From: Micromonospora echinofusca
Lineage (GTDB): Bacteria; Actinomycetota; Actinomycetes; Mycobacteriales; Micromonosporaceae
Assembly (NCBI RefSeq): GCF_900091445.1
Contig: NZ_LT607733.1
Location: forward strand, 5,235,001 to 5,299,000
DNA: 64,000 bases
Direction: 5' to 3'
Below are positions 5,512 through 17,234 of this stretch, one piece after another. Position 1 is the first letter of the stretch; every line of letters begins with the position of its first letter. A program made the position numbers and the translations under genes. The notes under the pieces are model-generated. The model worked only from the letters and a program-made list of their open reading frames with translations, searched no databases and was not told the origin of the DNA.

Positions 5512-8500
5512 TCACGCCCTGCCAACCACTCGATCATACTTTTCCTCTCGATTATCGAAGGCCGCCCGGGTGCCCTCAAGCACATCGATAGACTGCGAGC
5601 CAATTGAGCTCCGAGCAAGTGACCCCGACTCATATGAGAAGGTGCCACTATTCAACGTTGCAACTATCAGCTGATCAGCGTCGCCCACTACAGCCAAATT
5701 CGGATTATGCGTCACTACTATCACCTGACGCCGGTCAACAGCCGCACGAAGAGCCGGGATGAGGAGTTCTCTCACCGTCTGGTTATCTAGATTCTCCTCA
5801 GGCTGGTCCAACAGCAGCGGCTTATCAGATTTATCAATCAACAGGTAAAACATCAGGAGCACAAGGCCCCGCTGGCCAGGCGACAGCTCACTAAGCTCCG
5901 CCCCCGATGATCGAATCACATACTCGCCCTCCAGCCACTTAAGGTCGAACATGGCCAAGAGTAAGTCGGAGGCCGAATAGCTAGCCCGGACCACGGAGGA
6001 CAAGGCACGTCGAGCTCCAGCCCTATTACCCCTCTCTCGACCAATCCGATCTTGCAACTTCAGCAGTGCCGTAAATACTTCCTCGGCAGAGGCAAGGTTC
6101 ACGCCCTCAAGAAGAGACTCCTCATTTGGATTCTCGAAGACTGCGTGGAGATCCGAAAGTCGCTGTTTGTTCACGATGTCGCACCACGAAGCGGTGAAGC
6201 CCTTGATGCGCAGCTCAACGTCAAACTCAAGGCCGACCTGTCTTGCAAGAGAATGCGAGGCGACGTATGCGGTGGCATCCGAATACGCCTCCTTCTGGAT
6301 CGCAAATATCGACATGGCGGCCCTATGAGCTTGAAGAAAACCTTCCCTTAGCTCTCCTCGCGCTCGGTCCTCCGCTTCAGGAATGGCTTTGAGTTCGGCT
6401 GCCAGAGCCTCCGCTCCGCGCAAGCAACCCGGATTCGCCACGTCACCCAAGAGGTAGTCTCGGCGCTGAGTCAAATCGGCCGCCTTTCTCATCAGGTCTT
6501 CCGAGCCTTCCGCCCTTGCCTGTAACTCTTCCTCACATCTCCTAACCTTTTCGTCAATAGTGGCAATGCGCGAGTCGATTCCTTGCTTCGGATCAGAAAT
6601 CCCTCGGCGCGCGTCAGCGATGTTGTTAATCAGTTTGGCACGCCACGCCTCCGACTCTCCACTGTGGTAGACAATGCTGAAAATAGCATCTCCGTCAATA
6701 CCCATCCTTCGCGCCAACTCTTCGGCCGCAGCGCGTGCAGCCTCGAAATGGTCCAGGAATGACGCTTCGAGGCGAGAGATATCGTCGATAGATTCCTCGC
6801 TATTCCGAATCTCTTGCAGGAGCTTTACCTTTTGTCCCCCAAGGGCTAGTCGCTCTTCCCTTAACCCCTCAAGCTCCCTCTGTAGCGCATCGGCACCTGC
6901 GGCCACCTGCAGCTCAGACAATTCCTTTTGGGTTTGATCTACCTGCCGCTCAATCTCATTTACCTGTGAAGACAGTGAGTCAATCCGGGCGGGCAAATGA
7001 AGCGCTTCCAGTTCCGCCTTCCGATCTTCGGAACTCGTGAGCGCTTTAGCAGCCGTCGAAATTTTGGTCCGCGCGATTTGAAGATCCCCATAAGCTCGGA
7101 CCGAGCGCGCCTCCAAAAACTGGCGCAGCGAGGTCGCGTTTCCTCGGTCTTCAGGAGGGATATGACCCAGTACCACGCGCTCAATCTCTGCCTCAAACTG
7201 TCGCTCCTGCTTGCTGTAAGGGTCCGCTAGACACACTCTCTCGATAAGAGATTGAGGGAGGTAATCTACACCGACAGGCGCTCTAGCAGTAAACGGCTCG
7301 TCCAAGGAAGCAACTGCGCTAGTCCCGTCCGCCCAACAAATAGCGCCCTCATAGTGCCTAGCCTCACCATTCTTACGCCGGAATCGTGCTGGCGTAAGGA
7401 AGGAGTAGTCATCATAACGGTCGCTATTTGCCGCAGCGGCTACGATATCAAGAAGAGCAGATTTTCCTTGACCTTTATTACCCAAGATTACAACGAATCC
7501 TGGGTTAAGGTCTACTTCACAATTGAAGAGCCTGTGACTGTCGTCGCCACTGACTTTCGGACGCACCGAAACCTTATCGATTACAGTGGTTGGCCGGGTA
7601 GCTCGTCTTTTCAGGGTAGAGGGACGGTCATCGACAGTCACGCGGTGCCCATATTCCTGAACCGCATGCTGAAGACCCTTGAAGGTAGGGTCTGCGTTTA
7701 TCCACGTGAGCGCGTTCCCCAAGCGATCCTTCTCGTTCGCGTCCTTCCAAGTGTGGGCATCACTGCAGTCCAGAAGTCTGGCGTTCACGCCAGCGCTCGC
7801 TAGGGCCTGCTGCGAACGCCGAAATTCATCTCGATTCCCGGCCGCCGTGAAAACCACATTGGCAGAATTAATTAGCGTCTTCTTTGTAGCGATCGACTGG
7901 TCGTTCCATTTCAGTGCAGCCCATTCAGTTTTCCCTACCGCGATTAGCACTCGATCCGCTAGGGCGCTGTTGTCGCGAACCGACTTAATAGTCTCATTGA
8001 AGGGCACACAGACATTATTGAAGCCTTCAATAATGTCTGAACCGTATCGACTGCGCTCCCCCTCAGGCACCTGACTCTTAATTTTCTGCCCCAGATCCGT
8101 CAGAGCTTCGCGCGTCACAACCTGGCTCCAGGTTTCATACGGGTCCGTATTAGTCAAACGATACGTAGGCCTAAGCGATGCGATCAACTGTCGTTCGATT
8201 ACGCCCACCGAAAGAAGGGGGTCGCAGATGAAATGCAAGTTAATCCGCTTCAGCTTGCCTTCGGTGCCGCCAAAGTTCTCCGTTCTCACCTCGATAACCG
8301 GGAAGACCGCAGCGAGGTTGGGAAACCTGCCGCTGTCGAACTCCGCGCGCACCCGACTATACCCGTCAAGGAACCAATAGTCGTTTATGCCGAGAACTGC
8401 AATCTCTGGTGGAAGCTGCGCCAGTTCGGAGAAAAACCTGTCCCATGGGTCTGCCCCAGAATAGTTTTGACGGAGAGAATCGGGCGTATGGACATGCAAA

Positions 8501-8535
8501 TCCCACTTACGCCATTCCGTGCCGCGGCGATACAT
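5512..8535 (-). CDS. PHP-domain plus ABC/SMC-like ATPase (TrlF-like), probable defence protein
   Basis: The 1007-residue protein begins with a PHP phosphoesterase domain (WDLHVHTP at residues 11-18, further metal ligands in GINDYW and DCSDAHTWKD). An ABC/SMC-type ATPase follows, with Walker A GNKGQGKS near residue 350, coiled coil at roughly 480-720, signature LSPGQRG near 882 and Walker B LLLDQPEEN near 905, then an H-loop VVTHNPN. This PHP-head plus split-ATPase layout is that of TrlF-family proteins, and RecF/SMC-like ATPases fused to nucleases are common in phage defence. The substrate is unknown. G+C is far below that of the neighbours and codon use is much looser, which points to recent transfer. 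No partner gene is tightly linked, so it may act alone. Confidence 0.85.
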   Translation of the reverse strand: MYRRGTEWRKWDLHVHTPDSLRQNYSGADPWDRFFSELAQLPPEIAVLGINDYWFLDGYSRVRAEFDSGRFPNLAAVFPVIEVRTENFGGTEGKLKRINLHFICDPLLSVGVIERQLIASLRPTYRLTNTDPYETWSQVVTREALTDLGQKIKSQVPEGERSRYGSDIIEGFNNVCVPFNETIKSVRDNSALADRVLIAVGKTEWAALKWNDQSIATKKTLINSANVVFTAAGNRDEFRRSQQALASAGVNARLLDCSDAHTWKDANEKDRLGNALTWINADPTFKGLQHAVQEYGHRVTVDDRPSTLKRRATRPTTVIDKVSVRPKVSGDDSHRLFNCEVDLNPGFVVILGNKGQGKSALLDIVAAAANSDRYDDYSFLTPARFRRKNGEARHYEGAICWADGTSAVASLDEPFTARAPVGVDYLPQSLIERVCLADPYSKQERQFEAEIERVVLGHIPPEDRGNATSLRQFLEARSVRAYGDLQIARTKISTAAKALTSSEDRKAELEALHLPARIDSLSSQVNEIERQVDQTQKELSELQVAAGADALQRELEGLREERLALGGQKVKLLQEIRNSEESIDDISRLEASFLDHFEAARAAAEELARRMGIDGDAIFSIVYHSGESEAWRAKLINNIADARRGISDPKQGIDSRIATIDEKVRRCEEELQARAEGSEDLMRKAADLTQRRDYLLGDVANPGCLRGAEALAAELKAIPEAEDRARGELREGFLQAHRAAMSIFAIQKEAYSDATAYVASHSLARQVGLEFDVELRIKGFTASWCDIVNKQRLSDLHAVFENPNEESLLEGVNLASAEEVFTALLKLQDRIGRERGNRAGARRALSSVVRASYSASDLLLAMFDLKWLEGEYVIRSSGAELSELSPGQRGLVLLMFYLLIDKSDKPLLLDQPEENLDNQTVRELLIPALRAAVDRRQVIVVTHNPNLAVVGDADQLIVATLNSGTFSYESGSLARSSIGSQSIDVLEGTRAAFDNREEKYDRVVGRA

Positions 8536-9024: not shown

Positions 9025-9259
9025 CTGCCTGAGAGGGTCGTACTGTCACTGCAACTAGCGTCTGAAAGCAGCTGTCGCCCCAGTTCAATCACCTGGTGCG
9101 CTCAGCCTTCCACGTCGGCAGGACGTCTGGGCGTCTGGGCGTGTGCATCTGGAGCTTCTTGGAAAGAACGGCCTTGGATCGAGTTGTCCAATACCTGACA
9201 CCACTTTCAAGGAGGCGTAGCAGGGATAGCCGCTTGAGGGTGAAATTGGCTATCTTGCC

Positions 9260-12200
9260 ATGGTGATGGATCTTGAGCGGGGCGTTTACGAGCACCTCAT
9301 CACCGGCGAGCTGGCTGGCCGCCTCCAGCACGTCGACCCCGCCCTCGTCCAGCATCAAAAGCTCGACCCCGCCGACGCGCCCGACGCCCTCGCCCGTCAC
9401 ATCGCCACCCTGGCCCTCCGCGCCCTGCACGCCGTCCCCAGCGGCGACGACAAGCTCCACCGCCAGATCAAACTCGCCAACCGCATCGCCGACGCCATCG
9501 CCTCCGGGAGCCCGCAGGCGTCGACGGCACAGGACCAGGTGACCGACGCCAAGCACCTCCTGCACGCCATCGCCGCCCCACCCACCCCGCCCGCGCAACC
9601 AGCCTTCCCCCAACGCCCCACCACCCCGCTCTCCACCGGCGCGCTGCTGGTCAACGGCCGCCACCAGCCCCGCATCGGCCACGAGGTCACCCACGAAATG
9701 GCCTCGGCGGAGCAGGTCGACCTGCTCTGCGCGTTCATCAAGTGGTACGGCCTGCGCATCGTCGAGCCCGCCATCCGCGAGCTGATCGCCCGGGGCGGCA
9801 AGCTGCGCGTCATCACCACGACCTACCTGGGCGCGACCGATCAGCGGGCCCTCGACCGGCTCGCCGAGCTGGGCGCCGAGATCAAGGTGTCCTACGAGAC
9901 CAGGACCACCCGGCTGCACGCCAAGGCGTGGCTGTTCCGCCGGGGCAACGGCATGAGCACCGCGTACGTCGGATCGTCCAACCTGTCGAAGACCGCGCTG
10001 ATCGACGGCGTGGAGTGGAACGTACGCGTCTCCAACGTCGAGCAGCCGCACGTCATCAACACGTTCACCGCCACGTTCGAGGACTATTGGAACGACCCGG
10101 CGTTCGAGGACTACGACGCCACCCGGGACGCCGAGCGGCTGCGGAACGCCCTCAGCGGGGAGCGGCGCGAGGACTCGCCGACGCAGATCGCCAACCTGGA
10201 CGTGCGTCCGTACCCGTACCAGGCGGAGATCCTCGCCGACCTCGACGCCGAGCGCCAGGTGCACGGCCGGCACCGGAACCTGGTGGTGATGGCGACCGGC
10301 ACCGGCAAGACGGTCGTCGCGGCGCTGGACTTCCGGCGCCTGCAACGCAAGGGCCAGGTCGACTCGTTGCTCTTCGTCGCCCACCAGGAGCAGATCCTCA
10401 CCCAGAGCCTGGCGACGTTCCGGCAGGTGATGCTCGACGGCAGCTTCGGCGAAACGCTGGTCGGGGGCAAGACCCCGACCAGGTGGCGGCACGTCTTCGC
10501 CTCCATCCAGTCGCTACACCGGCGGGAGATCGACCCCGAGGCGTACGACATGGTGATCGTCGACGAGTTCCACCACGCGGAGGCACCGACGTACGCCCGG
10601 CTGTTGGAGCGGCTTCGGCCGCGCGTACTGCTGGGGCTTACGGCGACCCCCGACCGGGCCGACGGTCGGGATGTGCGGCGGTGGTTCGACGGCCGCGTGG
10701 CGGTGGAGCTGCACCTGTGGGAGGCGTTGGAGCGGCAGTTGCTCGCGCCGTTCCAGTATTTCGGGCTGCACGACGACGTGGACCTGTCGCGGCTGCGCTG
10801 GAAGCGCGGCCAGGGGTACGACATCGGCGAGCTTGACGGCCTCTACACCGGCAACGACGCGCGGGCGCGGCTGGTGCTGAAGGCGGTACGCGACACGGTC
10901 GACGTGGACCGGATGCGGGCGCTCGGGTTCTGCGTGAGCATCGCCCACGCCCGCTTCATGGCGGAGTGGTTCACCCGGCACGGGGTTCCGTCGGCGGCGG
11001 TGACCTCCCAGGTCGACCGGCCCGTGCAGCATGATCTGCTGCGGGAGTTCAAGGCCGGCAAGCTGCGGGTGCTCTTCACCGTCGACCTGTTCAACGAGGG
11101 CGTCGACCTGCCGATGGTCGACACGATCCTGATGCTGCGGCCCACCGAGAGCGCCACGATCTTCCTCCAGCAGCTCGGCCGTGGGCTGCGCCTGGACGAC
11201 GACAAGCCCTGCCTGACGGTGCTCGACTTCATCGGTGGGCAGCACGCCAACTTCCGCTTCGACCTGCGCTGGCGCGCCCTGACCGGGGTCAGCCGCCGGG
11301 AGATCAGGGATGCCGTCGAGCAGGGCTTCCCGTCGCTGCCCAGCGGCTGCCACATCCAACTCGACCCGGTCGCCCGCAGGGTCGTGCTCGACAACCTGCG
11401 TACCGTCATGCCGACCTCGAAGAACGGCCTGCTGGCGGAGCTACGCCATCTCGGGGACGTCAGCCTCGCCGGGTTCCTGCGGGAGACCGGCGTGGAGATC
11501 GAGGACGTCTACCGGTCGGCGACCATCGGCGGATGGACCGGGCTGCGGCGGCTCGCCGGGCTGGAGCCGTCCACGCCGGGGCCGGACGACCGGGAGCTGG
11601 GCCGGGCCATCGGGCGGATGCTGCACCTCGACGACCCGGACCGGCTGGCCCTGCTGACCCGGGTGGCGGCGGGCGACCGGCCCGGTGCCGGACGGCTGTG
11701 GGACATGCTCCACTTCGACCTGTGGGGGCCGAACGTGCCGCTGACCTCGCGGGACGAGCGGCTGACGCGGCTCTGGGCCGAGCCGGCACGCTGCGCCGAG
11801 CTGCGGCAGGTGGCCGAGGTGCTGCGCGAGCGGATCCACCGGGTCACGCCGCAGCCGCTGTCGGCGGAGGTGCCGCTGCGGGTGCACGCCCGCTACAGCC
11901 GCAACGAGGCGTGCGCGGCCTTCGGCATGCCGAACCCGGGTTCGCTGCGCGAGGGCGTGAAGTGGCTGCCCGACGCCAAGGCGGATCTCTTCTTCGTCAC
12001 CCTGGTCAAGTCGGAGGCGCACTACTCTCCCACCACCATGTACGCCGACCGGGCCATCACCGACAGCCTGTTCCAGTGGGAGTCGCAGAGCACCACGTCG
12101 TCGGCGTCGGTGACCGGTCAGCGCTACATCCACCACGCCTCGCGCGGCTCGACGGTGCACCTGTTCGTACGGGAGACCCGGGTCGCGGACCGGGACCTGG

Positions 12201-12337
12201 GCGCGCCGGCCTACCTCTACGCCGGCCCGATGACCTATCGGGAGCACACCGGCGACCGGCCCATCCGGATCATCTGGCGACTGGCGCACGCCCTCCCCGC
12301 CGACGTGTACGCCACCGCCCGCACCATCGCCGCATGA
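9260..12337 (+). CDS. PLD-nuclease / SF2 helicase / DUF3427 fusion
   Basis: The 1025-residue protein shows an N-terminal helical region, then a phospholipase-D-type nuclease segment (RLHAKAWLFRR near residue 218 and GSSNLSKTAL) at about 130-290. A superfamily 2 helicase follows, with Walker A ATGTGKT near 345, DEFHHAE near 435, GLTATPDR near 456 and motif VI QQLGRGLR near 637. A C-terminal DUF3427-type region runs to about 1000, including FGMPNPGSLREGVKW and HYSPTTMYADRAI. Such proteins are thought to act on foreign DNA. Its stop overlaps the start of the HNH nuclease gene (ATGA), implying that the two work together. The first ATG has no strong ribosome-binding site; ATG 9266 is an alternative. 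Confidence 0.85.
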   Translation: MVMDLERGVYEHLITGELAGRLQHVDPALVQHQKLDPADAPDALARHIATLALRALHAVPSGDDKLHRQIKLANRIADAIASGSPQASTAQDQVTDAKHLLHAIAAPPTPPAQPAFPQRPTTPLSTGALLVNGRHQPRIGHEVTHEMASAEQVDLLCAFIKWYGLRIVEPAIRELIARGGKLRVITTTYLGATDQRALDRLAELGAEIKVSYETRTTRLHAKAWLFRRGNGMSTAYVGSSNLSKTALIDGVEWNVRVSNVEQPHVINTFTATFEDYWNDPAFEDYDATRDAERLRNALSGERREDSPTQIANLDVRPYPYQAEILADLDAERQVHGRHRNLVVMATGTGKTVVAALDFRRLQRKGQVDSLLFVAHQEQILTQSLATFRQVMLDGSFGETLVGGKTPTRWRHVFASIQSLHRREIDPEAYDMVIVDEFHHAEAPTYARLLERLRPRVLLGLTATPDRADGRDVRRWFDGRVAVELHLWEALERQLLAPFQYFGLHDDVDLSRLRWKRGQGYDIGELDGLYTGNDARARLVLKAVRDTVDVDRMRALGFCVSIAHARFMAEWFTRHGVPSAAVTSQVDRPVQHDLLREFKAGKLRVLFTVDLFNEGVDLPMVDTILMLRPTESATIFLQQLGRGLRLDDDKPCLTVLDFIGGQHANFRFDLRWRALTGVSRREIRDAVEQGFPSLPSGCHIQLDPVARRVVLDNLRTVMPTSKNGLLAELRHLGDVSLAGFLRETGVEIEDVYRSATIGGWTGLRRLAGLEPSTPGPDDRELGRAIGRMLHLDDPDRLALLTRVAAGDRPGAGRLWDMLHFDLWGPNVPLTSRDERLTRLWAEPARCAELRQVAEVLRERIHRVTPQPLSAEVPLRVHARYSRNEACAAFGMPNPGSLREGVKWLPDAKADLFFVTLVKSEAHYSPTTMYADRAITDSLFQWESQSTTSSASVTGQRYIHHASRGSTVHLFVRETRVADRDLGAPAYLYAGPMTYREHTGDRPIRIIWRLAHALPADVYATARTIAA

Positions 12338-13188
12338 GCATCCGCCAGGAGGTGTTGGACCGGCTGACCTCGCTGCGACTGCATCAGCAGCGTGGCCGAC
12401 GCGCACCGCACAAGCCACTGCTGGTGTTGCTGGCACTCGGCCAGCTCGACCGGGGAGGATCCAGCGAGCTGGCGTGGTCGCAGACGCAGGAGCGGCTCAG
12501 CGACCTGATCGCGGAGTTCGGCCCGGCGTCGAAGACGGGGCGGGCGCAGAGCGCCGCGTACCCGTTCACCCGGCTCCGCAGCGACGGCGTGTGGACGCTG
12601 AACCGGGACGTGCCGATGGATCTGGTCGGACCGTTGGCGGCCCACGACGTGGTAGGCCGCCTCGATGCCGCCACCGAATCCGCCCTACGCAAGGACCCCG
12701 ATCTGGTACGGCGCGTCGCCCGCGCCCTGGTGGAGCAGCACTTTCCGCCCACCATCGCGCCCGACGTGCTCACCGCCGCCGGGCTCGATCCCGACGACAT
12801 CCTCCAGGCGCCGGGCGTCATGCCAGTTCCCGCGCGGCGGCGTGATGCCTCCTGGCGGGTGGCGGTACTCCAGGCATGGGACAGGCAGTGCGCGTTCTGC
12901 GGGTACGACGGCCAACTCGGCCACGCCTCGGTTGGGGTGGAGGCGGCGCACGTGCGCTGGTGGGCCTTCGACGGCCCGGACAGCCCCGACAACGGCCTGG
13001 CTCTCTGCGTGCTGCACCACAAGCTGTTCGACTTTGGCGCGCTGGGCCTCGACGGTGACCTGCGAATTGAGGTGTCGGCCGCCTTCACCGCCCGTACGCC
13101 GGCGGGTCGGTCGACCTATGACCTGCACGGCAGGATGTTGCAGCCTCGCCCCGGGACGCAGGTTCCCGCTATCGTGCACATCTCCTGA
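12334..13188 (+). CDS. HNH restriction endonuclease with phosphorothioate-DNA-binding-like N-terminus (ScoMcrA type)
   Basis: The 284-residue protein has an N-terminal domain (residues 1-150) with the pattern of the sulphur-binding domain of type IV enzymes such as ScoMcrA: HKPLLVLLALGQL, LAWSQTQERLSDLIAEFGP, AAYPFTRLRSDGVW. A C-terminal HNH nuclease follows: CAFCGYD near 186, VEAAHVRWW near 203, DNGLALCVLHHKLFD near 217-232. The family cuts DNA carrying phosphorothioate (Dnd) marks. No dnd genes are seen in this window, which fits a defender rather than a modifier. It overlaps the helicase gene by ATGA, so helicase and nuclease are very likely one system. It ends 73 bases before the convergent XRE gene. 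Confidence 0.85.
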   Translation: MSIRQEVLDRLTSLRLHQQRGRRAPHKPLLVLLALGQLDRGGSSELAWSQTQERLSDLIAEFGPASKTGRAQSAAYPFTRLRSDGVWTLNRDVPMDLVGPLAAHDVVGRLDAATESALRKDPDLVRRVARALVEQHFPPTIAPDVLTAAGLDPDDILQAPGVMPVPARRRDASWRVAVLQAWDRQCAFCGYDGQLGHASVGVEAAHVRWWAFDGPDSPDNGLALCVLHHKLFDFGALGLDGDLRIEVSAAFTARTPAGRSTYDLHGRMLQPRPGTQVPAIVHIS

Positions 13189-13260
13189 CACCGCCGTGAA
13201 GTGTTCAAGGGCGAGTCCCTCGCCGCATAGGGACGGGCGAACCGATTCGGGGAGGGGCGC

Positions 13261-13560
13261 TCAGGTAGCGTCTGCGTCCGGAGCGAATCTGACATCCAAT
13301 TTCATGCTAAGCGCACGTGCGAAACACTCCAGTACCGGCAGGGTTGGCACGGTGCCGCCAGCCTCGAACCGGGCCACGGCGGGCTGGGTCATTCCCGCAG
13401 ACTTCGCTAACTGACTCTGGCTCCACCCCTTGTGTTCCCTCAGGTGCCGCACCTCTTGCCCAAGCTCGAAGGCGATGCGCGTCACCTCGTAAGCCTCGGC
13501 GGCTCCGGGCTCCGCCATTCGGCGATCACGCAGGTCGTTCCAGTCGACGCGATCGCTCAT
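13261..13560 (-). CDS. XRE-family antitoxin-like DNA-binding protein
   Basis: The 99-residue protein has a typical HTH at about residues 37-90 (HLREHKGWSQSQLAKSAGMTQPAVARFEAGG). It is preceded by MSDRVDWNDLRDRRMAEPGAAEAYE, which matches the N-terminal arm of HigA/RelB-like antitoxins. No toxin gene lies immediately upstream (13561-13667 holds none) or downstream on the same strand, so it appears to be an orphan antitoxin or a stand-alone regulator. It sits between the HNH nuclease and the macrodomain gene and could control either one. Confidence 0.8.
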   Translation of the reverse strand: MSDRVDWNDLRDRRMAEPGAAEAYEVTRIAFELGQEVRHLREHKGWSQSQLAKSAGMTQPAVARFEAGGTVPTLPVLECFARALSMKLDVRFAPDADAT

Positions 13561-13667: not shown

Positions 13668-14150
13668 ATGTCACAGCCGAGTGGTAGCAACGGCTTCGTG
13701 ATCAGCATTCGGCACGGCGACCTGCTCGACGCGGACGTCGAGGCACTCGTCAATCCCGTCAACACCGTCGGCGTGATGGGCAGGGGCCTCGCCCTGGCCT
13801 TCAAGCAGGCCCATCCCGCGAACTTCACCGCATACCGCGCGGCCTGCGCAGCAGGCACCGTCCGTCTCGGACGGATGTTCGTGTACGACTCGGGCACGCC
13901 GGGCCGGCACCGCTACGTCGTCAACTTCCCGACCAAGGGTCACTGGCGCTCGTCGTCCCGCCTTGCCGACATCGAGGCCGGGCTGCCCGATCTGGTACGC
14001 GTCCTGCGCGACAACTGCATCGCCTCGGTGGCGGTGCCGGCGCTCGGCTGCGGCAACGGCGGCCTCGACTGGGCCGAGGTCCGCCCCCTGATCGAAGCAG
14101 CTCTCGCCGACCTGCCGAGCGTGCAGACGTTTCTGCACGAACCCGGATGA
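13668..14150 (+). CDS. Macrodomain protein of DarG antitoxin type
   Basis: The 160-residue protein is essentially one macrodomain: IRHGDLLDADVEALVNPVN near residues 14-33, GVMGRGLALAFKQAHP following, then NFPTKGHWRSSSRLADIEAGL near 87-107 and VPALGCGNGGLDW near 125-137. The NFPTKxHWR and GCGNGGL motifs are those of DarG, the antitoxin that removes ADP-ribose from thymidine in DNA. DarG normally has a longer C-terminus and a darT toxin gene upstream; neither is present here. It may be an orphan guard against DarT-carrying elements, or an ADP-ribose hydrolase with another substrate. Confidence 0.85.
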   Translation: MSQPSGSNGFVISIRHGDLLDADVEALVNPVNTVGVMGRGLALAFKQAHPANFTAYRAACAAGTVRLGRMFVYDSGTPGRHRYVVNFPTKGHWRSSSRLADIEAGLPDLVRVLRDNCIASVAVPALGCGNGGLDWAEVRPLIEAALADLPSVQTFLHEPG

Positions 14151-14323
14151 CCTGTCAGAGAACACCGGTGACGGCCATGCGCTCCAACTGGCGGCTGGTT
14201 GCCGCCTGGATGCGCCGCCCAGCATCTGCGCATCGGGCCACTCGGCTGAGAGGTCCTGGCCCTGCCCGGAAGGCGCTCGCCCGACTACCGCCGTGGCCCT
14301 GCTGGCACCGCCACGATGGAGGC

Positions 14324-14659
14324 TCAGTTTTCAAGCTGTCTGCGGAAGCGCTCCTCCTCGGCCTTCTTACGGCTCTTGACGACCTCCGTCGCGTTGATCT
14401 GCGGATCGGTCCTGTCGAAGACTGCCTTCTTTCCGTCGGGGCTCACGAGCAGCGGCACTGTGGCGCCAACTGCGACCCCGAGGGTGCGGGAGTCCCCCAT
14501 GACCTCGAGCCTGGTTTTTTGCCCGTCCGGCCCCACGAACTGGACAATGAAGGCCCACTTCGCATGCGAGTTCTGGACGCTGTGGAGCCGCGAGTCGAGC
14601 ACGCGCCCCATGGCCTTGACCCATTTGCGGTGAAAGAAGCGAAAGAACATGGGGCTCAT
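14324..14659 (-). CDS. Conserved hypothetical 111-residue protein
   Basis: The protein begins MSPMFFRFFHRKWVKAMGR and contains VQFVGPDGQKTRLEVMGDSR and LLVSPDGKKAVFDRTDPQINA, followed by a charged C-terminal helix (VVKSRKKAEEERFRR). The middle part looks like a small beta-barrel similar to DUF3592/NfeD-like domains, but this is a weak impression. There is no signal peptide or membrane segment. It is separated from the macrodomain gene by about 170 bases and transcribed toward it, and it marks the right edge of the accessory region. Confidence 0.6.
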   Translation of the reverse strand: MSPMFFRFFHRKWVKAMGRVLDSRLHSVQNSHAKWAFIVQFVGPDGQKTRLEVMGDSRTLGVAVGATVPLLVSPDGKKAVFDRTDPQINATEVVKSRKKAEEERFRRQLEN

Positions 14660-14788
14660 TTCTGCGACAGATCGTTGACCGGAGACTTGCTGCTGGCGCT
14701 AATGTGCCAGCCATTGTCAAAGGCCCGGTCGGTGCGCGCAACGAGCGCGGCAGCAAGCCCACTTCATCGTGACGCTGCTGGTCACGGG

Positions 14789-15964
14789 TCACCGGGCAGC
14801 GGGTGCGAGCGCCTGCTGCAGGTATCTGTCGACGTCCGTGGCGTGGTAGATCCGTTCGCTCGCCTCGATGCCGTCGAGGAACATCGCGTACACCGCCGCC
14901 AGCCGCAGCGCCGCGACCGGCCGCAGCAGCTCCACGGCCCGCTCCGGCTCGCACCCCGGCACCTCGGCCCGCCACCGCGCGCACCACTCGGCGAGCACCG
15001 GGGCGGCGACGTCGTCCGCGAGCCCCTCGGCCAGCCGCAGCGCGTCGAACGCCGGGTGTCCCACGAACGCGTCGCCCCAGTCGATGACCACGTGCCGCCC
15101 GGCGTCGGCGCGTACGTTGCCGGGGTGCAGGTCGCCGTGCACGAGGGTGTCCGGCAGCCCGCACCCGCGTACCTCGTCGAGCCGCGCATCCAGCCCCGCC
15201 AGCAGCGCCCGCACCGACGAGGCGTCGTGGCCGGCCAGCCGATCGCGGATCCAGCCGGGCAGGGCGTCGGCGCGCAGGTCGGGTACGCCCGCCGCGACCA
15301 GGTCCGCCACGTCCGGGACGGACCGCACCTGCACCGGATGGAAGGCGGCGGCCATCGCCAGCCGCTCCTCGATCGGCGCCCCGTAACGGTCCTCGCCGGG
15401 CACGTGCGCGATCAGCATCCGGCCGTCGCCGTCGTCCGCGAGCAGCGTCGACGTCCTCCCCGGCGCGGCCCGGCCGAGCCAGCGCAGCACGGCCGCCTCG
15501 TGCCGGAAGAACGCCGGCACCTGCTTCAGCCAGGCCGTCCCGCCCGGCCCGTCGAGCCGCCAGACGGCCGACAGGTTCCAGGTGCGCTGCTGGGTGACGG
15601 CCTCCGCCGGGCAGCCGAGCCGCCGCAGCTCGGCCGTCGCCCACGCGAGGCTGCGCGCCGGGCCGCCGGGCTCGGCGTAGGGGGCGCGCAGCGGGTCCGC
15701 CGACAGGTCGAGCGTCGCCGGTACGAGCGGCGTGGCGGGCGGCCCGTCGACCTGTGCGAGGTACGTGACCGAGCCGCCCATCGGCTGCGGCGCGTCGCCG
15801 GTCAGCAGGCGGAGCACGGCCACCTCCACGCCGTACCGTCGGCGGGCCTCGGCCACGACGGGGCCGACCTCCTGCCACCAGGGCGACGGGACGTCGAAGG
15901 GCGGCAGCACGCCCAGCGGGGCGCCAGCGGCGTCGACCAGGACGAGGGTGACGGAGCGGGACAC
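14789..15964 (-). CDS. Phosphotransferase of the APH / choline-kinase fold
   Basis: The 391-residue protein has the catalytic loop VHGDLHPGNV near residue 275 and the metal-binding IDWGD near 293, both diagnostic of aminoglycoside-phosphotransferase-like kinases. The N-terminal ~110 residues (VTLVLVDAAGAPLGVLPPF ... PWWQEV) look like an extra domain as seen in NUDIX-APH fusions. The substrate is unknown and may be a small-molecule alcohol rather than an antibiotic. The start is GTG. The gene runs in the same direction as the upstream efflux pump gene, 40 bases away, so they may share a transcript. Confidence 0.8.
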   Translation of the reverse strand: MSRSVTLVLVDAAGAPLGVLPPFDVPSPWWQEVGPVVAEARRRYGVEVAVLRLLTGDAPQPMGGSVTYLAQVDGPPATPLVPATLDLSADPLRAPYAEPGGPARSLAWATAELRRLGCPAEAVTQQRTWNLSAVWRLDGPGGTAWLKQVPAFFRHEAAVLRWLGRAAPGRTSTLLADDGDGRMLIAHVPGEDRYGAPIEERLAMAAAFHPVQVRSVPDVADLVAAGVPDLRADALPGWIRDRLAGHDASSVRALLAGLDARLDEVRGCGLPDTLVHGDLHPGNVRADAGRHVVIDWGDAFVGHPAFDALRLAEGLADDVAAPVLAEWCARWRAEVPGCEPERAVELLRPVAALRLAAVYAMFLDGIEASERIYHATDVDRYLQQALAPAAR

Positions 15965-16004
15965 GCCGGCACGCTACCGCCGGCCACCCGGCCCGAGCGA
16001 GGGG

Positions 16005-17234
16005 TTAACGGCGGGCGCGGGCCAGGGTGCCGACGACGGCGAGGGAGGCGGCCGCCGCCCCGGCGAGCACCACGGCCATCGGGACGGCGCTGCCCTCGCC
16101 GCCCAGCCCGACCAGCGGGGCGGCCATCGCGCCCACCAGCGACTGGATGGTGCCGAGCAGCGCGGCGGCCGTCCCGGCGTGGGCGGGGTGCCGGTCCAGG
16201 GCGAGCGCGGTGCCGTTCGGCATCACCATGCCGAGGGAGCCCATGAAGACGAAGAGCGCGACGGCCACCAGCGGCAGGCTGCCGAGCAGCGCGCCGGCGA
16301 GCAGGACGGCGGCGGCCAGCAGCCCCACGCCCAGCGGGCGCAGCAGCAGGGTGCGGGGCGCGAAGCGGTCCAGCAGGCGGGCGTTGAGCTGGCCGGCGGC
16401 GACCAGGGCGAGCGCGTTGACGCCGAAGATGAGGCTGAACGCGCCGGCCGAGACGCCGAAGACGTCCTGGAAGACGAAGGACGACCCGGAGATGTAGGCG
16501 AAGAGCGCGGCGAAGGCGAGGCCCTGCGCCAGCGCGTACCCCAGGAAGATCCGGTCGGCGAAGAGCGAGCGACCGGCGGCGGCCGTGGCGGCGAGGCCGC
16601 CGGTGCTGCGCCGCGCGGCGGGCAGCGTCTCCGGCAGCCGCCACGCGACGGCGGCGGCGAGCAGCGCGCCGATCACCGCGAGGGCGACGAAGACGGTACG
16701 CCAGTCCCCGAAGCGCAGCACCAGGCTGCCGAAGGCCGGCGCGGCCATCGGGGCGACGCCGAAGACCAGGATGAGCCGGGAGAAGTACTTGGCGGCCTCG
16801 CGCCCGGAGTAGAGGTCGCGGACGACGGCGCGGGCGACGACGACGCCCATGCCGCCGGCGAAGCCCTGCGCGAGGCGCGCCGCCGCCAGGGTCTCGGCTG
16901 TCGGCACGGCCGCGCACACCAACGACAGCAGGGTGTACGCGGCGACGCCCACCAGCACGGGCCGGCGCCGCCCGAAGCGGTCGCTGAGCGGACCGGTGAC
17001 GAGCTGGCCGAGGGCCATGCCGATGAGGCAGGTGGTCAGCGAGAGCTGGATCCGCGCCTGGCTGGCGGACAGGTCGCCGGTCATCTCCGGGAACGCCGGC
17101 AGGTAGGTGTCCAGGGAGAGCGGCCCGACGGCGGTGAGCGTGCCGAGCAGCACCAGCAGCACGACGGCGGCCCGCCCGGTGGGCGCGGCGACGCGCTCGC
17201 CCGGTCGTACGGGTGGCGCGGTGGCGTGCGGCAT
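16005..17234 (-). CDS. Bcr/CflA-family multidrug efflux MFS transporter
   Basis: The 409-residue protein has 12 predicted transmembrane segments. It carries the family features LDTYLPAFPEMTGDL in the first loop, the MFS motif GPLSDRFGRRRPVL near residue 80 and LAQGFAGGMGVVVARAVVRDL near 125. This subfamily exports drugs such as bicyclomycin, chloramphenicol or sulfonamides by proton antiport. The ATG start is 78 bases from the divergent MarR gene, and the perfect palindrome between them (17269-17290) is the likely operator. That arrangement fits drug-inducible efflux. Confidence 0.9.
   Translation of the reverse strand: MPHATAPPVRPGERVAAPTGRAAVVLLVLLGTLTAVGPLSLDTYLPAFPEMTGDLSASQARIQLSLTTCLIGMALGQLVTGPLSDRFGRRRPVLVGVAAYTLLSLVCAAVPTAETLAAARLAQGFAGGMGVVVARAVVRDLYSGREAAKYFSRLILVFGVAPMAAPAFGSLVLRFGDWRTVFVALAVIGALLAAAVAWRLPETLPAARRSTGGLAATAAAGRSLFADRIFLGYALAQGLAFAALFAYISGSSFVFQDVFGVSAGAFSLIFGVNALALVAAGQLNARLLDRFAPRTLLLRPLGVGLLAAAVLLAGALLGSLPLVAVALFVFMGSLGMVMPNGTALALDRHPAHAGTAAALLGTIQSLVGAMAAPLVGLGGEGSAVPMAVVLAGAAAASLAVVGTLARARR

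Follow-up and report, generated by a model that had tools for sequence, protein, structure and literature searches.

The locus examined here raises the question of how two overlapping restriction genes divide the recognition and the destruction of modified DNA between them, or whether they divide these tasks at all. It lies in a window of 64,000 nucleotides from Micromonospora echinofusca (NCBI RefSeq assembly GCF_900091445.1, 7.0 Mb in one contig; NZ_LT607733.1, forward-strand positions 5,235,001 to 5,299,000); positions below are those of the window, and features lie on the plus strand unless stated otherwise. The first gene (9260–12337) encodes a putative SauUSI-type ATP-dependent restriction enzyme of 1025 amino acids (PLD nuclease, SF2 motor, coupler, and DUF3427/SRA-type recognition domain; hereafter the helicase). 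The second (12334–13188) encodes a protein of 284 amino acids with a sulphur-binding domain (SBD) and an HNH nuclease, assigned to the phosphorothioate (PT)-dependent restriction family NF045808, whose frame closes at an early in-frame TGA. The original prediction had described a PLD-SF2-DUF3427 open reading frame (ORF) overlapping an HNH ORF by ATGA, which the ORFs and Pfam confirm, and had proposed that the HNH enzyme reads the mark and the helicase-PLD protein degrades the target. Two points go beyond that prediction: the first protein is of the SauUSI type, and the HNH frame stops 14 residues early. The pair is probably an operon for two modification-dependent nucleases that act autonomously and on different marks, the marks, the activities, and the independence all being predicted.

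The sequence of the first protein marks it as a type IV restriction enzyme of the SauUSI type that carries a nuclease, a motor, and a predicted 5-methylcytosine (5mC) pocket of its own. Pfam recognizes PLDc_2, ResIII, Helicase_C, and DUF3427, and the PADLOC profile mREase_IV PDLC03659 scores 936.5 bits, as against 116 bits for the best PbeA profile. The closest solved relative by sequence is SauUSI (PDB 7clg, E 7.9e-75), which Foldseek also ranks first for the AlphaFold model (E 6.4e-41; mean pLDDT of the model 79.7); the best 50 VIA-align rows, a list filled by the motor domain, do not contain 7clg. In the PLD nuclease domain (9635–10159, approximately residues 126–300), H220, K222, N241, and E252 are invariant in all 44 aligned helicase rows; N241 and E252 are presumably the remaining catalytic positions, as in PLD nucleases in general. 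The SF2 motor (10205–11254, approximately residues 316–665) retains the Walker A lysine K350, the DExH-box residues D435-E436, and the motif VI arginines R641 and R644, again in 44 of 44 rows. The PLD motif of SauUSI is taken from PMC3874153 and PMC7913695. These papers describe an ATP-dependent enzyme in which a single polypeptide is sufficient for activity: its SRA domain recognizes 5mC or 5-hydroxymethylcytosine, and the enzyme translocates and shreds DNA.

The C-terminal DUF3427, an SRA-type target recognition domain (11807–12313, residues 850–1018), is assigned by sequence profile (75.3 bits in Pfam, cut-off 27.7). Its residues W902, F912, V913, D930, and W940 pair with the SauUSI pocket residues Y831, F841, I842, D858, and W868, counted by hand on a sequence alignment, with the pocket as given in PMC7913695. 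D930 and W940 are conserved in 43 of the 44 rows (one gap each), W902 in 39, V913 in 38, and F912 in 34. The 14 helicase rows with an SBD-HNH gene nearby and the remaining 30 have identical catalytic residues and have both largely kept those of the pocket, so that no loss-of-function difference marks the former in the alignment. The group of 30 was checked for SBD-HNH genes within 8 kb only in part, several loci having just 1.5 kb of flank, and it includes L043 (genome G198) with degenerate SBD-HNH pieces at about 2 kb and L045 (G085) with SBD- and HNH-like matches at about 3 kb. A role of the helicase as mere effector of the HNH enzyme was rejected as the leading reading, because it keeps its own nuclease and reader residues both with and without a nearby SBD-HNH gene.

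Profile, fold, and the residues of its pocket make the second protein a probable phosphorothioate-dependent enzyme. NCBIfam NF045808 (“phosphorothioated DNA-binding restriction endonuclease”) matches it with 257.5 bits (cut-off 180), and the SBD (12334–12804, residues 1–157) matches the solved SBDs of SprMcrA and ScoMcrA by sequence and by fold. The sulphur pocket residues H26, K27, Y76, and P77 are all present, and the less conserved A168 position is R80. The original prediction of a ScoMcrA-like sulphur-binding N-terminus is thus borne out, the domain having both the SBD fold and the pocket residues. The HNH domain (12889–13050, residues 186–239; HNH_2 in Pfam, 41.1 bits) aligns with all catalytic residues (H206, N220, H229) and the Cys/His zinc positions; in the predicted structure this part has low confidence, and most alignment rows end at about residue 284. 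According to Pfam, NCBIfam, and the model, the chain consists of SBD and HNH only, without an SRA domain. Its nearest relatives are from Micromonospora, with 92% identity to a protein of M. peucetia. Purified SBD-HNH enzymes such as EcoWI cleave PT-DNA, according to PMC7461809. Profiles and residues thereby support both the type IV restriction character of the locus and the PT-sensing type of the HNH enzyme, as originally proposed.

The start codon of the HNH gene and the stop codon of the helicase gene share four nucleotides (ATGA, 12334–12337). The same 4-nt overlap is present in seven of the eight distinct loci with the helicase-then-HNH order (ATGA in five, GTGA in two); in the eighth, L066, the genes are separated by 2.3 kb. 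In the paired loci compared, the two ORFs form one homologous block with its edges at the gene edges, generally close to the start of the helicase and to the stop of the HNH gene; the homology common to L063 and L064 reaches about 1 kb further upstream, and in L066 the block is in two pieces. Because the overlap is kept in seven of eight loci and the single block is cut at gene edges, the arrangement goes beyond chance. Immediately 5′ of the helicase start lies a −10-like hexamer found by inspection of the sequence (TATCTT, 9251–9256), and TANNNT-like words were seen by eye at a similar position in several relatives, which suggests a candidate leaderless promoter for both genes.

The distribution of the two genes was examined in 200 genomes of the order, including the window genome (SBD-HNH above profile cut-off; helicase E up to 1e-30), and in 121 Micromonospora genomes (SBD-HNH E up to 1e-40). 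The order sample contains SBD-HNH genes in six genomes and helicases in 48, with direct coupling in the window genome and in G163; G152 has the reverse gene order with 1.6 kb between the genes. In the genus sample, 63 of the 121 genomes have an intact helicase and five have helicase fragments alone. SBD-HNH genes occur in four genomes, each time directly 3′ of the helicase on the same strand, whereas 59 of the 63 intact helicases have no SBD-HNH in the genome. Obligate co-occurrence from both sides therefore fails (4/4 on the HNH side, 4/63 on the helicase side). The pairing is asymmetric: the helicase usually occurs without the SBD-HNH gene, which is an optional addition. The expectation that the pair is conserved in other genomes thus holds for the HNH side, within one clade of Micromonosporaceae, and fails for the helicase side. 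The division of labour originally proposed is not supported, since the helicase has its own nuclease and predicted base-mark reader and mostly lacks the partner.

Of 334 confirmed relatives of the HNH gene, the best 80 (the named loci) were inspected with flanks that span up to 8 kb, or less where a contig ends. A helicase match above 400 bits is present in the examined flank of 14 and missing from that of 66, two of which (L089, L099) show a weak match at about 250 bits. The strong matches lie upstream on the same strand in six loci (five directly adjacent; L066 at 2.3 kb), downstream on the same strand in another six (0.2–4.3 kb), divergently at 77 bp in one, and on the other strand 5.8 kb away in one. 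L104 has the order HNH then helicase. The upstream neighbours of SBD-HNH genes include no family in more than two of 52 scanned ORFs (first 25 of 42 families); a script had chosen 66 ORFs from 83 loci (80 named, three on plasmids), some of the picks probably being spurious, and five SauUSI-type ORFs and nine others were left out. The SBD-HNH search also retrieved 67 plasmid records and one phage record, all below 60% identity, and in two of five plasmid loci inspected an NTPase gene stands directly in front. In L164 (Euzebya pacifica plasmid NZ_CP031166.1, 161658–174392), a PLD-SNF2 helicase gene, itself preceded by a large methyltransferase-like gene recognized by eye from the sequence, overlaps the SBD-HNH gene by 4 nt, which makes this another, separate case of a PLD-helicase paired with an SBD-HNH enzyme; in L166 (Azospirillum argentinense plasmid NZ_CP032328.1, 77086–89889), 28 nt separate the SBD-HNH gene from the end of the strawberry-notch-like NTPase gene in front of it.

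In the HNH tree, a single clade (SH-aLRT 99) unites the nine rows with the helicase-then-HNH order, which stand for eight distinct loci, and no SBD-HNH gene of this clade lacks the helicase. The tree was computed without L085, L086, and L100, the clade is independent of L104, and eight loci with little flank were set for exclusion from the counts of arrangement changes. The helicase tree omits the duplicates L146, L155, and L162. Its nine paired rows are dispersed over the 24 solo ones: seven label changes are counted, six of which are required by branches with good support, and a count as low as this arose in 122 of 500 shuffles. The window helicase is 95–96% identical to those of L147 and L149 (genomes G220 and G277), and a search of both genomes found no SBD-HNH. 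The immediate homology between the window and these two loci begins about 11 nt upstream of the helicase start codon and ceases 2 nt after the stop codon, with just 0.4 kb of sequence examined 3′ of the helicase in L147.

The outer flanks of the window locus (left, 1.6–3.5 kb; right, from 17.8 kb to 27.7 kb) recur beside three of seven paired helicases (L063, L064, L067) and ten of 17 solo helicases (L148, L151, L152, L153, L155, L156, L159, L160, L161, L163), and the genes between these shared flanks differ from locus to locus. This pattern indicates that many helicase copies occupy one variable chromosomal hotspot, where the helicase, with or without the HNH gene, would be one of several exchanged cargoes. 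A movement of the two genes between unrelated sites was considered and rejected on the same grounds. No homology outside the block was found in the stretches examined of L144, L145, and L066, and L062 has only a single piece of 0.5 kb with 66% identity in common with the window.

Behind the in-frame TGA (13186–13188), the HNH frame continues for 13 codons up to a TAG (13228–13230), and the codons of this stretch (13186–13230) match the C-terminal tail of relatives. The frame therefore ends 14 residues short of an end that is conserved in 79 of 82 relatives (the 80 named loci plus L144 and L145), 77 of them by pattern and two (L097, L103) in variant form; of the remaining three, L100 is at a contig end, L104 has a broken frame, and L110 is divergent. 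The family search of genomes flags the same TGA. Because the stop falls 14 residues before the end of relatives, the SBD-HNH copy of the window may be impaired, weak, or inactive, and because the tail-matching codons are still readable behind it, the change looks recent. All examined pocket and HNH residues precede the TGA. Intact full-length HNH copies exist among the relatives, but other SBD-HNH genes are interrupted by an internal stop (L085, L086), a broken frame (L104), or fragmentation (G078, G198), and fragmented helicases occur within the genus in G282, G236, G237, G231, and G249, which suggests frequent decay of both genes.

In the window genome, a search for the C5-methyltransferase family was negative (control search positive in 10 of 14 genomes), as was one for DndC (control positive in 5 of 14, none above cut-off), other PT-modification genes not having been searched. 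Among the matches listed for the genus sample, a full-length C5-methyltransferase, i.e., a single-piece match spanning nearly the whole profile that was picked by the authors from matches listed by E-value, is rarer with an intact helicase than without (19/63 vs 36/58; Fisher p = 5e-4), as is the sum of full-length and two-piece matches (24/63 vs 41/58; p = 5e-4). The paired genomes include two without a C5-methyltransferase match (G000, G262), one with a full-length match (G163), and one with only a partial match (G270). DndC was found in one of the 121 genomes (G266, with helicase and without SBD-HNH), a number too small to be tested.

Domain content, residue conservation, coupling, the shared block, the asymmetry of pairing, and a host without a C5-methyltransferase or DndC match are the observations from this analysis that underlie the preferred reading of the pair as two autonomous nucleases. 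The SauUSI-type enzyme would be self-sufficient, with its C-terminal SRA-type domain reading 5-methyl- or 5-hydroxymethylcytosine, ATP-driven translocation, and shredding of the DNA by the PLD domain; the SBD-HNH enzyme, likewise self-sufficient, would read phosphorothioate with its N-terminal domain and cut beside the mark. In profiles, sequence, and fold, the two proteins match known autonomous families (SauUSI-type and SBD-HNH, respectively), and SauUSI itself as well as purified SBD-HNH enzymes act alone. The reading is also favoured by the 59 of 63 intact helicases without a partner, by paired helicases dispersed among solo ones as against a single HNH clade, and by the rarity of full-length C5-methyltransferases in genomes with an intact helicase. 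Since a reader and a nuclease are present on either protein, a split in which the HNH enzyme reads and the helicase executes is unnecessary. As a type IV restriction operon of two genes, the locus would have both enzymes translated together and would thereby cover two unrelated marks with one small unit. In some Micromonospora, the pair is one small defence unit.

Several observations weigh against this reading. The whole-chain TM score between helicase and SauUSI is low (0.33/0.41 in Foldseek), and the base pocket rests on a weak stretch of the alignment (second segment, 10.2 bits). The depletion of C5-methyltransferases is one of three definitions tried, with statistics that ignore both kinship and this number of definitions; among the matches listed, it is weaker for any C5-methyltransferase match (38/63 vs 46/58; p = 0.03), 19 genomes with an intact helicase keep a full-length enzyme, including the paired G163 and G220, and G277 has a two-piece match, the helicases of G220 and G277 being the nearest to that of the window. 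The presence of the helicase in nine of nine rows of the HNH clade and the SBD-HNH genes directly behind other NTPases on the Euzebya and Azospirillum plasmids would fit cooperation.

Such cooperation could take the form of a true two-component machine, in which the SBD-HNH protein recognizes PT and recruits or activates the SauUSI-type motor to shred the DNA, or in which the two marks act as a joint gate. The overlap in seven of eight distinct loci together with the single shared block, an HNH clade that never lacks the helicase (9/9 rows), and adjacency both in other arrangements (14 of 80 named loci with a helicase above 400 bits) and to other NTPases argue for it, but a helicase that retains its own mark reader and nuclease and mostly occurs without a partner, and the 66 of 80 HNH relatives without a helicase match above 400 bits in the examined flank, make it an unlikely explanation. 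Also unlikely is a dual-mark machine, in which the SBD-HNH protein would dock on the SauUSI-type motor to form one complex reading PT and methylcytosine, a split ScoMcrA with a motor; SBD-HNH proteins would then serve as plug-in readers for NTPase-nucleases of several unrelated kinds, namely the SauUSI type of the window, the PLD-SNF2 type of Euzebya, and the strawberry-notch type of Azospirillum.

There is a modest chance that in this strain only the helicase works and that the SBD-HNH gene is a passenger broken by the TGA, which would be compatible with two autonomous enzymes in the intact relatives. The conserved end of 79 of 82 relatives is lost here while its codons persist behind the stop, and further broken copies exist (L085, L086, L104, G078, G198); yet the examined pocket and HNH residues all lie upstream of the stop, and the TGA may be a base-calling error or may be read through. 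It is improbable that the two genes are ordinary defence-island neighbours in a variable hotspot, linked only by a shared promoter. The exact 4-nt overlap, the block cut at gene edges, and an HNH clade that is always accompanied by the helicase speak against this, even though the flanking genes are of the defence type (a TrlF-family ATPase at 5512–8535 and a DarG-type macro domain at 13668–14150), pieces of the outer flanks recur at ten of 17 solo and three of seven paired helicases with differing genes between them, and the helicase and SBD-HNH families mostly occur apart.

Each half of the pair is known, and what is new is the arrangement of known parts. The window helicase shares with SauUSI the order of PLD, SF2, coupler, and C-terminal SRA-type domain, identical PLD residues, and a largely retained predicted 5mC pocket; it differs in being about 70 residues longer (1025 vs 953) with moderate similarity, in two positions (Y831 to W902; the E126 position to R227), and in having a second restriction gene coupled 3′. 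The second protein resembles SprMcrA, EcoWI, and other SBD-HNH enzymes of NF045808 in profile, SBD fold, HR/HK and YP pocket, and HNH residues; unlike them, it lacks the last 14 residues and is coupled to a SauUSI-type gene. ScoMcrA (SBD-SRA-HNH; PMC7461809 and PMC6224610) also combines a PT reader, an SRA-type reader, and HNH, but in one chain, whereas the SRA-type reader of the window is on a separate ATP-dependent PLD enzyme. PbeA and the HKD+SF2 helicases of Dnd-type loci likewise fuse an HKD/PLD nuclease to an SF2 helicase (PMC10853773); in contrast, the PbeA profile reaches 116 bits on the window helicase as against 936, and the DndC model finds nothing in the window genome. The same survey of Dnd loci names HKD+SF2 helicases and wHTH(SBD)+SAD+HNH among Dnd-associated nucleases, and an SBD-HNH study screened neighbourhoods for dnd genes (PMC7461809). 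No description of the helicase and SBD-HNH pair was found in the literature, searched by title and abstract opening, with subscription papers mostly outside the search.

The pair adjoins a minus-strand gene for a TrlF-family AAA-like ATPase of 1007 amino acids (5512–8535; NF045780, 482.8 bits, cut-off 350). Directly behind it lies an XRE-like ORF, named by eye (13261–13560, minus strand; 99 amino acids), which has a counterpart in L149 (4027–4332) about 1.9 kb behind the solo helicase with two other ORFs between, and is common to several further solo loci. It is followed by a macro-domain ORF (13668–14150; 160 amino acids) that matches the N-terminal part of the antitoxin DarG (234.9 bits, cut-off 250) and has relatives near the helicase in L067, L063, and L160, and by an ORF of 699 amino acids (14147–16246) that overlaps it by 4 nt and has no Pfam, NCBIfam, or PADLOC match. 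No Dnd or Pbe protein was named among five other ORFs scanned with Pfam, or among four scanned with NCBIfam and PADLOC, the remaining ORFs being unscanned. GIY_YIG_2-type nuclease ORFs stand beside the pair in L064 (8977–9534), L083 (8892–9515), and L104 (3354–4022), beside the HNH gene in L089 (8929–9519), and beside the helicase in L044 (770–1072). As a regular third component they were rejected: 33 of 200 genomes of the order have a match, and just two of these, G029 and (with an internal stop) G190, have it within about 2 kb of a helicase; in G085 the distance is 8 kb.

For actinobacterial SauUSI-type enzymes, the depletion of C5-methyltransferases beside the helicase leads to a testable prediction. 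Two restriction enzymes, one for a predicted base mark and one for a predicted backbone mark, in a single translational unit would be a simple widening of defence; if the two proteins do cooperate, PT sensing would gain an ATP-driven effector.

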